Shown here piece after piece: positions 32,869 to 36,421 of a stretch of 64,000 nt of DNA. The notes under the pieces were generated by a model. The model was not told the DNA's origin. It saw nothing but the letters and a program-made list of their open reading frames with translations, and searched no databases. Numbering within the stretch: position 1 is the stretch's first letter; each line of letters begins with the position of its first letter. This DNA is from Bacteroidaceae bacterium (lineage in GTDB: Bacteria > Bacteroidota > Bacteroidia > Bacteroidales > Bacteroidaceae): positions 1 through 64,000 of the forward strand of contig JAKSLJ010000008.1 in NCBI GenBank assembly GCA_024401275.1, in the 5' to 3' direction. The position numbers and the translations under genes were made by a program.

Positions 32869-34695
32869 ATGGAAATCAAAGAACTAGACAGCGTTGTAGT
32901 ACGCTTTTCAGGTGACTCCGGCGACGGTATGCAGCTCGCTGGAAACATTTTCTCTACCGTTTCCGCAACAATCGGTAACGGTATCTCTACTTTCCCTGAC
33001 TATCCTGCCGACATCCGCGCTCCGCAGGGTTCTCTTACTGGAGTTTCGGGCTTCCAGGTACACATTGGTGCCGGTGCAGTTTACACTCCTGGTGACAAGT
33101 GCGACGTGCTCGTAGCAATGAATGCTGCTGCACTCAAGACTCAATATAAGTACGCAAAGAAGGGCGCCACCATCATCATCGACACAGACTCTTTCGGTCC
33201 TAAGGATCTCCAGAAGGCTGAGTTCAAGACTGAGGACTACCTCGGCGAGATGAACATCGACCCTGATTGCGTTATCCAGTGTCCACTCACTCAGATGGTT
33301 AAGGATTGTCTCGCTGAGTCTGGCATGGACAACAAGGCTATCATGAAGTGCCGTAACATGTTCGCTCTCGGACTTGTTTGTTGGCTCTTCAACCGTGACC
33401 TCGAACTCGTGAACAACTTCCTCCGCGAGAAGTTCGCCAAGAAGCCAGCTATCGCAGAGAACAATATTAAGGTTGTTCAGGCAGGTTTCGACTACGGTCA
33501 CAACGTACACGCTTCTGTACCAAACACTTACCGCATCGAGACAAAGAACAAGGTGCCAGGACGCTACATGGACATCACTGGTAACAAGGCTACGGCTTAC
33601 GGTCTTATCGCAGCTGCTGAGAAGGCTGGCTTGAAGCTTTACCTCGGTTCTTATCCTATCACTCCTGCAACTGACGTTCTCCACGAACTCTCTAAGCATA
33701 AGTCACTCGGCGTTACAACTGTTCAGTGTGAAGACGAAATCGCTGGTTGCGCTTCTTCTCTCGGCGCTTCTTTCGCAGGTGCTCTCGCCGTAACTTCTAC
33801 ATCAGGTCCTGGTATCTGCTTGAAGTCAGAGGCTATGAACCTCGCTGTTATCATGGAACTTCCACTCGTTGTTCTTGATGTTCAGCGTGGTGGTCCTGCT
33901 ACAGGTCTTCCTACTAAGTCAGAGCAGACAGACCTTCTCCAGGTTCTCTTCGGACGTAACGGTGAATCTCCAATGCCTGTTATGGCTGCAACTTCTCCAG
34001 TTGACTGCTTCGACGCTGCTTACGAGGCTTCAAAGATGGCACTCGAGTACATGACTCCAGTCGTTCTCCTCACAGACGCTTATGTAGCAAACGGTTCTGG
34101 CGCATTCAAGCTCCCTAACCTCGAGGATTATCCAGCTATCAATCCTCCTTACGTACCAGAGGAAATGAAGGGCACTTGGGCACCTTACAACCGCAACGAG
34201 AAGGGCGTTCGCTACTGGGCTGTTCCTGGTCGTGAAGGTTTCACTCACATCCTCGGTGGTCTTGAGAAGGACAACAAGACAGGCGCTATCTCTACTAACC
34301 CTGAGAACCACGACCTCATGACTCGTCTCCGTCAGCAGAAGATCGACAATATCGAGGTTCCAGATCTCGTTGTTGAAGGCGATGTTGACGACGCAGAACT
34401 CCTCATCGTAGGCTTCGGTGGTACTTACGGTCATCTCCACGCAGCAATGGACGAGATGCGTGCCGCAGGCAAGAAGGTTGCACAGGCACACTTCAAGTTC
34501 ATCAACCCACTTCCAAAGAACACAGAAGAGGTTCTCAAGAAGTATCCGAAGGTTGTGGTAGCAGAGCAGAACATGGGTCAGCTCGCCGGCTTCCTCCGCA
34601 TGAAGATCGACAACTTCGTTCCAGCACAGTACAACGAAGTTAAGGGCCAGCCATTCGTAGTAGAGGAACTCGTTAAGGCTTTCAACAAGATCTAG
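32869..34695 (+). CDS. korA: 2-oxoacid (2-oxoglutarate):ferredoxin oxidoreductase, alpha subunit with fused gamma domain
   Basis: A 608-residue subunit. Residues about 1-190 are the gamma domain (FSGDSGDGMQLAGNIFS start); the rest is the alpha pyrimidine-binding and transketolase-C-like domain with LGSYPITPATDVLHELSK and TSTSGPGICLKSE. With KorB it decarboxylates 2-oxoglutarate to succinyl-CoA, or runs in reverse, passing electrons to ferredoxin. The gene uses many C-ending codons, as highly expressed genes here do. Normally korB would follow closely, but a 680-bp repeat cassette with its own gene intervenes. Related KGOR/POR subunits are the alternative; 2-oxoglutarate is the usual call for this two-subunit form. 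Confidence 0.93.
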   Translation: MEIKELDSVVVRFSGDSGDGMQLAGNIFSTVSATIGNGISTFPDYPADIRAPQGSLTGVSGFQVHIGAGAVYTPGDKCDVLVAMNAAALKTQYKYAKKGATIIIDTDSFGPKDLQKAEFKTEDYLGEMNIDPDCVIQCPLTQMVKDCLAESGMDNKAIMKCRNMFALGLVCWLFNRDLELVNNFLREKFAKKPAIAENNIKVVQAGFDYGHNVHASVPNTYRIETKNKVPGRYMDITGNKATAYGLIAAAEKAGLKLYLGSYPITPATDVLHELSKHKSLGVTTVQCEDEIAGCASSLGASFAGALAVTSTSGPGICLKSEAMNLAVIMELPLVVLDVQRGGPATGLPTKSEQTDLLQVLFGRNGESPMPVMAATSPVDCFDAAYEASKMALEYMTPVVLLTDAYVANGSGAFKLPNLEDYPAINPPYVPEEMKGTWAPYNRNEKGVRYWAVPGREGFTHILGGLEKDNKTGAISTNPENHDLMTRLRQQKIDNIEVPDLVVEGDVDDAELLIVGFGGTYGHLHAAMDEMRAAGKKVAQAHFKFINPLPKNTEEVLKKYPKVVVAEQNMGQLAGFLRMKIDNFVPAQYNEVKGQPFVVEELVKAFNKI

Positions 34696-34719
34696 GGATC
34701 TTTGATCAAGTAATAAAAA

Positions 34720-35399
34720 ATCAAGAATTAGAGAATTAGAGAATTTTTATCCGCCAAGTTCTTTTATTCTCTTGAATTCAATAAGAATTTTGAGAAAATA
34801 GCACAAAATAAATTCTCTAATTCTTGATTATAAAAATAAATATAGTCACTAACTTATAAAATATAATATCAAGAATTATAGAATTTAAGAATTTTATCAC
34901 ATGGCCTTGTTGTACGAAAAAGAAAGTAACATTCTTTTAGGATTGGCTTTGCAATTGCATCGAGAACTGGGATGTGGATTTAAGGAGAAAATCTATCAAG
35001 ATGCTTTTGAGATACTACTCCAAGAGAATAAGATTCCTTATGAAAGGGAAAAGAACATAAGTTTGACTTTCCATGGGAAGATTCTTCAGCATGAGTTCTA
35101 CTATGATTTTCTTTGCTTTGACAAAGTCGGAATTGAAATAAAGGCTGTATCTGAGTTGACGGGTGAGTTTGAAGCCCAGATAATAAATTATCTACACGTC
35201 AGCAACCATAAGTTGGGACTTCTTTTAAACTTTGGAACCCAAAGTCTTGAGTATAAGTGGTATCCCAATGAATGGCATTACAGAACAAGAAATGAAATAG
35301 GATAAAATATAATCAAAACATTTGAAATAATTCTCCAATTCTTGATAATAAACGAGTAAAAATAATCGTCAGGAAAAAGAAAATTCTCTAATTCTTGAT
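34720..35399. mobile_element. Repeat-bounded GxxExxY cassette between korA and korB
   Basis: The 18-bp word ATCAAGAATTAGAGAATT occurs at 34720-34737 (plus), 34811-34828 (exact, inverted), 34868-34885 (plus, one change), 35329-35346 (inverted, one change) and 35382-35399 (exact, inverted). The outermost copies form perfect terminal inverted repeats around one ORF. The cassette lies entirely in the korA-korB spacer (25 bases after korA, 17 before korB) and is far more AT-rich than its neighbours. No transposase or target-site duplication is evident, so mobility is inferred. Confidence 0.65.
34901..35305 (+). CDS. GxxExxY protein (PD-(D/E)XK nuclease superfamily)
   Basis: A 134-residue cytosolic protein. 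The name-giving motif is GFKEKIY (Gly26, Glu29, Tyr32). The nuclease-fold core is visible as FYYDFL (Asp69) followed by GIEIKAV (Glu79, Lys81), so the D..ExK triad is intact; HVSNHKLGLLLNFG follows as the family's last strand. Function of these widespread small proteins is not established; the fold suggests DNA binding or cleavage. It is the only gene in the repeat cassette, is AT-rich, and has AT-rich codon use unlike korA and korB, all signs of separate origin. Confidence 0.88.
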   Translation: MALLYEKESNILLGLALQLHRELGCGFKEKIYQDAFEILLQENKIPYEREKNISLTFHGKILQHEFYYDFLCFDKVGIEIKAVSELTGEFEAQIINYLHVSNHKLGLLLNFGTQSLEYKWYPNEWHYRTRNEIG

Positions 35400-35416
35400 A
35401 TTAAAAAAGAATAGTT

Positions 35417-36421
35417 ATGGAATACTCTCCGAATTCTTATAAAAAAGGACAGCCACGTTGGTGTCCTGGATGCGGCGACCACTTCTTCCTCGCATCTCTT
35501 CATAAGGCAATGGCTGAGATCGGCGTTGCTCCACAGGATATTGCAGTAATCTCTGGTATCGGTTGTTCATCTCGTCTGCCACACTACATGGCAACTTACG
35601 GCATGAACACTATCCACGGTCGTGCAGCAGCTATCGCTACTGGTGCAAAGGTTGCAAATCCAAACCTCACAGTATGGCAGATCTCTGGTGATGGTGACGG
35701 ACTCGCTATCGGTGGTAACCACTTCATCCACGCTAACCGTCGTAACATCGACCTCAACATGATCCTCCTCAACAACCGTATCTACGGTTTGACTAAGGGT
35801 CAGTACTCTCCAACATCTCCACGCGGATTCGTCAGCAAGTCGTCTCCATACGGAACTGTTGAGGATCCATTCCGCCCAGCAGAACTCTGCTTCGGTGCTC
35901 GCGGTCACTTCTTCGCTCGTGCCGTTGCCACAGATGCTCCTGGCACTGTTGACGTGCTCAAGGCAGCTTACAACCATAAGGGCGCTTCTGTCTGCGAGAT
36001 CCTCCAGAACTGCGTTATCTTCAACAACGGTACTCACGACTCTGTATATTCTAAGGAAGGACGTGCCAAGAACGCTATCTACGTAAAGCACGGTCAGCCA
36101 CTCATCTTCGGTGAGAACAACGAGTACGGTATCATGCAGGACGGCTTCTCTCTCAAGGTCGTAAAGATCGGCGAGAACGGCATCACAGAGAAGGACATCC
36201 TTGTTCACGATGCTCATTGCGAGGACAACACTCTCCAGCTCAAGCTTGCCATGATGGACGGCACAAACGGTTTCCCTATCGCTCTCGGCGTAATCCGTGA
36301 TGTTGACGCTCCTACATACAACGATGCTGTAGAGGCACAGATTGAGGAAGTGAAGGCTGCTAAGAAGTACCACACTTTCGCAGAACTTCTTGAGACAAAC
36401 GATACATGGGTTGTTGAATAA
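35417..36421 (+). CDS. korB: 2-oxoacid (2-oxoglutarate):ferredoxin oxidoreductase, beta subunit
   Basis: A 334-residue subunit that binds thiamine diphosphate and a [4Fe-4S] cluster. The N-terminus has RWCPGCGDH with the first Cys pair, then GIGCSSRLPHY, GRAAAIATGAK, and the Mg/TPP motif GDGDGLAIGGNH with LNNRIYGLTKGQYSPTS. Cys in the SVCEILQNC segment may be a further ligand. It works with KorA. It begins 17 bp after the last copy of the cassette repeat and is followed by nfnAB, so ferredoxin reduced here could feed that enzyme. Confidence 0.94.
   Translation: MEYSPNSYKKGQPRWCPGCGDHFFLASLHKAMAEIGVAPQDIAVISGIGCSSRLPHYMATYGMNTIHGRAAAIATGAKVANPNLTVWQISGDGDGLAIGGNHFIHANRRNIDLNMILLNNRIYGLTKGQYSPTSPRGFVSKSSPYGTVEDPFRPAELCFGARGHFFARAVATDAPGTVDVLKAAYNHKGASVCEILQNCVIFNNGTHDSVYSKEGRAKNAIYVKHGQPLIFGENNEYGIMQDGFSLKVVKIGENGITEKDILVHDAHCEDNTLQLKLAMMDGTNGFPIALGVIRDVDAPTYNDAVEAQIEEVKAAKKYHTFAELLETNDTWVVE

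Follow-up and report, generated by a model that had tools for sequence, protein, structure and literature searches.

We find that the block at positions 34720-35399 of the DNA analysed here (the window: 64,000 nucleotides, positions 1 to 64,000 of contig JAKSLJ010000008.1 of a Bacteroidaceae bacterium, assembly GCA_024401275.1) is, as far as sequence comparison can tell, a nuclease cassette that is bounded by words and has moved from one gap between genes to another. The block forms the spacer between the alpha and beta subunit genes of one 2-oxoacid:acceptor oxidoreductase, here called korA and korB, and holds one small gene of the GxxExxY family between inverted copies of an 18-bp word. Movement between sites is argued by two features: the tree of the GxxExxY protein does not match the sites at which its genes reside, and the cassette ends are bounded by the word. 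In our estimate the chances are about even that the cassette is a selfish mobile element in which a predicted Cas4/RecB-like PD-(D/E)XK nuclease recognises and cuts the words, the cassette being copied into other gaps between co-transcribed genes.

Block anatomy and word frequency

The word ATCAAGAATTAGAGAATT occurs five times in the block, in the order +, -, +, gene, -, - (Table 1), and lies at the core of a longer motif whose period is 8 bp (TCAAGAATT-AGAGAATT-AGAGAATT). Most of what the original prediction had said about this block is borne out: GC content falls from about 0.50 to 0.20-0.37, confirming that it is AT-rich; a word scan shows the outermost pair of words to be a perfect inverted repeat; matches to TIGR03710 (alpha) and to a PorB_KorB-type beta subunit flank the block, which thus splits two subunits of one enzyme; and the GxxExxY gene is the only open reading frame (ORF) of at least 80 aa, so that no transposase is present. 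The claim of five word copies holds for their number and order, but only three are exact and two carry one mismatch.

These copies are not a product of chance, because reversed-pattern controls gave none. The genome from which the window comes (3.2 Mb, 71 contigs) has 10 word copies at up to two mismatches, five of them in the block, and 0 copies of the reversed pattern; TCAAGAATTNGAGAATT is present in 54 of 200 same-genus genomes and its reversed control in 0 of 200.

Words and protein lineages across sites

The nearest relatives of the window protein, at 65-77% identity, lie at other sites, while the residents of other korA-korB gaps share only 32-50% with it. Its clade spans about 14 labelled sites, and 27 of the 28 homologues at 65-77% identity elsewhere share the window's word at a score of at least 36, the 28th (L057, score 26) having a variant. 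The same association extends beyond this clade: over 3753 pairs of loci at different sites, word similarity correlated with protein identity (r 0.394; 0 of 1000 permutations), and a word was shared in 85% of pairs at 60% identity or more versus 2% of pairs below 40%. Judged on these comparisons, the word belongs to the protein lineage rather than to the site.

In the protein tree, the window sits in a clade of 29 members from many sites, 18 korA-korB rows form a clade of their own (support 90/72), and a third korA-korB lineage, L152, groups with L012. Because three lineages occupy this gap and a single korA-korB clade of GxxExxY proteins was rejected by test, the tree indicates that GxxExxY cassettes likely entered the korA-korB gap at least three times. 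Vertical inheritance at this gap does occur, since 18 rows form one clade, and this is what could be said for viewing the words as chance AT-rich repeats around a vertically inherited gene. That explanation is hardly credible, having already been refuted by the word-lineage, tree, and arm tests: the window copy lies outside the 18-row clade, the reversed-word controls are zero, and every one of the 30 filled gaps has complementary arms.

Other gaps hold such cassettes too. Among 25 usable loci of a gap read by eye as ychF-lgt, a GxxExxY gene with the window's word or a variant is present in four and an IVP gene in two (one in the window's own genome), and 19 lack such a gene at 224 nt or less; this sample comprised loci from 30 of 133 matching genomes plus five added ones, giving 35 scored and 25 with both genes, and four of the 25 had been added because they were known to be filled. 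A gap read as gmd-fcl is home to two GxxExxY clades. The neighbour names ychF, lgt, gmd, fcl, wecB, sdhA/B, and trpE/G are those we presume from letters or titles. The original prediction had left open a mobile element or a repeat-recognising system; the first branch is well supported, with the same word and lineage at many gaps and with empty korA-korB sites.

Two observations made by eye concern these sites. A gap read as sdhA-sdhB holds IVP cassettes in 14 genus loci (L229-L235, L239, and others), and locus L190 shows an apparent tandem duplication of the end of the upstream gene together with a truncated cassette copy, which might be an intermediate of insertion or repair.

The korA-korB gap in relatives

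KorB was detected in 149 of 150 same-genus genomes, a few of which have two loci; 129 loci were scored, and 127 remained after L029 (no korA) and L120 (negative gap) were dropped. Inspection of these spacers, which the original prediction had proposed, revealed many empty sites: 64 of the 127 gaps are shorter than 70 nt (43 of them at most 30 nt), 33 measure 70-299 nt, and 30 are at least 300 nt long. All 30 long gaps hold a small gene on the operon strand, identified by tblastn as GxxExxY in 19 (including the window), four-helix IVP in eight, and DUF559 in three; a Pfam check covered one IVP, one DUF559, and one further GxxExxY gene. The inverted arms in 30 of 30 long gaps score above the 99th percentile of arms swapped between kinds. 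Some long-gap genes are broken, as in L090, L094, and L097, and gene-less inverted arms are kept in three of the 33 middle gaps (L025, L034, and L112).

These gaps bear on the view that the cassette is a regulatory or toxin-antitoxin-like module that spreads by ordinary gene transfer and whose protein, by binding the words, regulates either the operon or its own production. Words lie directly 5' of the start codon and between host genes, and the protein is under purifying selection, as such a module would predict. We nevertheless consider it very improbable, given that the host gene pairs are unrelated, the cassette gene is absent from 97 of 127 korA-korB gaps, three unrelated gene families have settled in the same gap, and the block has no second gene and no match in PADLOC or PHROGs.

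Several features of the arms were noted in passing. To the eye, L112 resembles a GxxExxY cassette with its gene mostly deleted, and in L149 and L163 the arms have grown into tandem arrays on one side of the gene; L011 shows such an array with a 113-bp period. In the set of L097, L148, L157, L034, and L019, GC-rich palindromes of the GCCCCCGAGGGGGC type flank the DUF559 genes of the korA-korB gap, and similar palindromes occur without a gene.

The GxxExxY protein

The 134-aa product matches PF13366 at 109.9 bits (cut-off 22) and TIGR04256 (GxxExxY) at 116 bits (cut-off 35), and Pfam gives PF13366 alone, with no match to PF05635 (S23/IVP). The family motif G-x-x-E-x-x-Y corresponds to G26, E29, and Y32. 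The D..ExK nuclease centre (Asp69, Glu79, Lys81), which had been described as apparently intact, is indeed present, and all 87 aligned proteins share E29, D69, E79, K81, Q93, Y97, and N110 without exception.

A QxxxY motif after ExK is a mark of the Cas4/RecB branch of PD-(D/E)XK nucleases, and here it is formed by Q93 and Y97. An AlphaFold2 model of the protein (predicted local distance difference test, pLDDT, 90.2; predicted template modelling score, pTM, 0.83) found its best Foldseek match in SSO0001 (4ic1), which from its title we take to be a Cas4, followed by lambda exonuclease; MGME1, AddAB, AdnAB, and Cas4 entries appear at lower ranks, mixed with other restriction-endonuclease-like folds. 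Together, the model fold and the QxxxY motif point to the Cas4/RecB branch for the window protein, which is predicted to be an active nuclease; binding or cutting of the word by this protein seems plausible. The ratio of nonsynonymous to synonymous substitution rates (dN/dS) could be defined for 22 of 406 pairs and is about 0.05 in these, so that the protein is under purifying selection. A defence or phage origin was rejected, as no PADLOC or PHROGs match was found at E 0.001.

Cassette ends and orientation

When the 14 labelled sites of the clade were aligned on the outer exact word, the mean majority was 0.85 from the word inward and 0.44 outside it on the 5' side. The 5' boundary is thus sharp at the word. 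The smallest cassettes consist of word, gene, and word in about 450 bp.

Cassettes point the same way as their neighbours in each of the 30 filled korA-korB gaps and, with few exceptions, at other sites. Outside korA-korB, elements in co-directional gaps were co-oriented in 77 cases versus two opposed, although these 79 include many relatives and so are not 79 independent events, and some neighbour calls were shadow ORFs (the window's own korB was scored as opposed). Taken alone, co-orientation was set aside as weak evidence, because 29 of the 45 genes of the window likewise run in the direction of both their neighbours; the count restricted to co-directional gaps is the better measure.

The position of the elements on the transcript strand would also suit an RNA-level element like a ribosomal intervening sequence (IVS), in which the words would pair into an mRNA stem, to be excised from the operon transcript by RNase III or by the protein itself. 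IVP cassettes of the same layout occupy the same gaps, and the Coxiella 23S rRNA IVS combines heptamer repeats with a terminal stem of 28 bp and is excised by RNase III (PMC4990558). This explanation appears improbable to us. Mismatches between the sense-strand arms are A.C in 94 cases versus G.T in 55 (92 elements, p 0.002; 67 versus 47 in GxxExxY elements alone), the opposite of what a conserved sense-RNA stem should produce, and on this test an RNA stem was rejected as unsupported. In addition, the elements occupy many different sites, and 20 related loci gave no Rfam match at gathering score, the window block yielding only a sub-threshold small nucleolar RNA (snoRNA) match (E 0.14).

Related cassettes in the genome, genus, and phylum

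The window's own genome contains four GxxExxY and two IVP genes. The original prediction had called for a search for such genes flanked by different words, and this is what emerged: among the five outside the window, four (L011, L013, L015, and L016) lie between inverted words, each with a word sequence of its own, and L012, at a contig end, shows none. It had also turned on whether close GxxExxY relatives carry flanking words, as nearly all of those at other sites proved to do. More broadly, 101 of 198 same-phylum genomes contain a PF13366 match, and a PF05635 gene was detected in 131 of 150 genomes of the same genus. Inverted flanks exceed the control level in 23 of 29 unique top-scoring phylum loci, 22 of 26 genus IVP loci, 7 of 12 close same-genus relatives, 6 of 9 other genus loci, and 4 of 4 own-genome loci; rows with a flank shorter than 100 nt were excluded from this test, so L012 (score 13 in an earlier scoring) stands outside the four.

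Words without the nuclease gene and other counterevidence

The word is present in 10 of 12 genomes that have the clade's gene, the other two carrying variant words. It is also found in 44 of 188 same-genus genomes that lack this gene, eight of them at 15-64 copies. Such occurrences, together with the other results collected in this section, weigh against a selfish element moved by its own nuclease. Those dispersed gene-less copies that were inspected are partly passengers, within an outer inverted-ended element in one genome and beside neighbours resembling repetitive extragenic palindromic (REP) sequences in another. In the first of these, G032 (L365, L378, and L379), a three-copy gene-less word unit is nested in an outer element with inverted ends AAGTTTCCCACC / GGTGGGAAACTT. 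Moreover, 40 word regions from six genomes contain no ORF of 70 aa or more inside a word pair. Words can, on this sequence evidence, be carried by other machines, because they occur without the clade's gene and inside other repeat families, and the nuclease's part in movement is something that we infer.

The ends and sites of the cassettes add to these difficulties. The 3' boundary, profiled over its outside positions, is less sharp, with an A-rich tendency outside the word (0.52). Judged as an insertion sequence (IS) or a miniature inverted-repeat transposable element (MITE), the block has inverted ends; it carries no transposase, and target-site duplication was absent from 20 clade members (mean common substring of the outside flanks 4.25 versus 4.18 when shuffled), with no near-identical empty site for comparison. 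Flank identity to the window reaches 0.81 in its closest relative with a short gap, and the highest value between any filled gap and a short-gap relative, 0.91, involves one with a word remnant; as there is no near-identical pair of filled and empty sites, insertion is not established at base resolution. The inverted-flank test was failed by 5 of 12 close same-genus members, 6 of 29 phylum-wide loci, and 4 of 26 IVP loci. Within the korA-korB residents, words diverge fast: of the 94 pairs with at least 60% identity, only 56% share one. Finally, the protein has no sequence relative in the PDB (best E 0.81).

An alternative that draws on several of these results is that the cassette is mobile while the nuclease is a passenger or resident guardian: a host RAYT, an IS transposase, or general repeat recombination would move word-bounded DNA, and GxxExxY would benefit from or limit that movement. 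Words lying within an outer inverted-ended unit or beside REP-like repeats, and words in genomes without the clade's gene, are what it would lead one to expect, as is the REP family of the window's own genome, which abuts words at two gene-less places. We judge this explanation unlikely, though deserving of serious attention, since from site to site the word follows the lineage of the nuclease, words differ between nuclease clades, and on the 5' side conservation of the gene-bearing cassettes stops at the word. Gene-less multi-copy units had also been considered as proof of autonomous movement, and were rejected as such when alignment gave outer inverted ends or REP neighbours.

The REP family in question, TGTAGGGCGAGGATTTCCGAGCCG, is a high-copy family with 166 matches at up to three mismatches in the window's own genome, often in inverted pairs (for example, G000:C14:13669-13741 and C27:3400-3472). 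The exact motif of the window occurs outside the block at five places on four contigs, with the REP family beside it on two; at two places without a gene the REP lies within the word or next to it, and by eye the gap holding one of these reads as trpE-trpG. Four other genomes (G071, G148, G111, and G047) have 26-64 exact copies of the core word and no window-clade gene, and in G047, the one inspected among them, the words often adjoin a REP-like repeat.

Features of the block and its neighbours

The korA-like frame ends at a TAG stop at 34693-34695, and by eye, 18 nt downstream and in frame (region 34693-34713), ATC AAG TAA resembles the usual korA end of relatives.

Table 1. Features of the cassette and the two genes that flank it, in window coordinates
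Feature	Positions	Strand	Profile match
Host gene korA-like, 2-oxoacid:acceptor oxidoreductase alpha, upstream of cassette	32869..34695	+	TIGR03710, 656.9 bits (cut-off 482.75)
Word copy 1, exact; left end of cassette, motif runs on to about 34747	34720..34737	+	
Word copy 2, exact; pairs with copy 1 as a 109-bp inverted unit that lacks a gene	34811..34828	-	
Word copy 3, one mismatch; directly 5' of the GxxExxY gene	34868..34885	+	
GxxExxY / PDDEXK_3 gene, 134 aa, intact; E29, D69, E79, K81, Q93, Y97 invariant	34901..35305	+	
Word copy 4, one mismatch	35329..35346	-	
Word copy 5, exact; right end of cassette	35382..35399	-	
Host gene korB-like (PorB_KorB-type beta), downstream of cassette	35417..36421	+	TIGR02177, 244.4 bits (below cut-off 261.9)

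Discussion

In regard to how a selfish cassette of this kind might spread, its strand and its place in the gap suggest that it would be expressed from the transcript of the host operon. Where DNA is single-stranded or supercoiled, paired words may form hairpins or cruciforms, which the nuclease would recognise and nick at or near, and repair or replication could then copy the cassette into a new gap with both neighbours intact. Such spread would need no transposase, and the cassette would persist because both neighbouring reading frames stay whole.

REPIN-RAYT systems are the subject of PMC3116915. In general, RAYTs are Y1/HUH transposases. The resemblance to the cassette lies in a lone nuclease gene set between short inverted extragenic repeats of its own and, to some extent, in inverted pairs without a gene at other places, but the PD-(D/E)XK fold here is unrelated, the block has no Y1 transposase gene (only PF13366), and gene-less copies are few in its own genome. 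The Coxiella 23S rRNA intervening sequence, 428 nt long with a small ORF of unknown function, has been described as selfish (PMC4990558), and IVP genes are also found in rRNA insertions of the Candidate Phyla Radiation (CPR; PMC11270868). The 23S rRNA IVS with its S23/IVP ORF is alike in being short, with one small ORF, terminal inverted repeats, and, in one IVS, tandem heptamer units, and IVP cassettes of the same layout occupy the same gaps here. In contrast, the described IVSs reside within rRNA genes, and RNase III removes them from the rRNA, whereas the window element lies between protein genes (no rRNA match was found in 34600-35500), encodes a nuclease-fold protein, and has its own word for each nuclease lineage. 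The TAACTGA repeats of Beggiatoaceae are likewise heptamer words in intergenic and operon-internal gaps, and their authors consider a repeat-binding protein as a possible mobile element; unlike the words described here, they are nearly all direct repeats, and the accessible portion of that account describes no linked nuclease gene (PMC4679880).

The Cas4, RecB, and lambda-exonuclease branch shares with the window protein the model fold and the set of E, D, ExK, and QxxxY, but the window protein has only 134 aa and its gene lies between cognate repeats. In the open-licence literature, no account of GxxExxY cassettes and their cognate words was found, judged on titles and abstract openings among the matches listed, and no established role was found for PF13366 or PF05635 genes. 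The window gene is a member of the GxxExxY family, and its cassette would be a new variety of small selfish element bounded by inverted repeats.

A broader proposal, to which we give somewhat less than even chances, is that a widespread class of transposase-free elements exists, in which Cas4-like mini-nucleases, each with its own hairpin word, hop between operon gaps while nuclease and word diverge together; IVP and DUF559 cassettes would be parallel classes, and the ribosomal IVS a special case. If PF13366 and PF05635 proteins are the enzymes of word-bounded cassettes, many genes now called 'hypothetical' and many unexplained repeats in gaps would be gathered into one class of selfish DNA. 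Each nuclease would then have a candidate target written beside its gene, so that recognition would be directly testable, and there would be a way for DNA to transpose by means of a Cas4-like nuclease, with no transposase involved.
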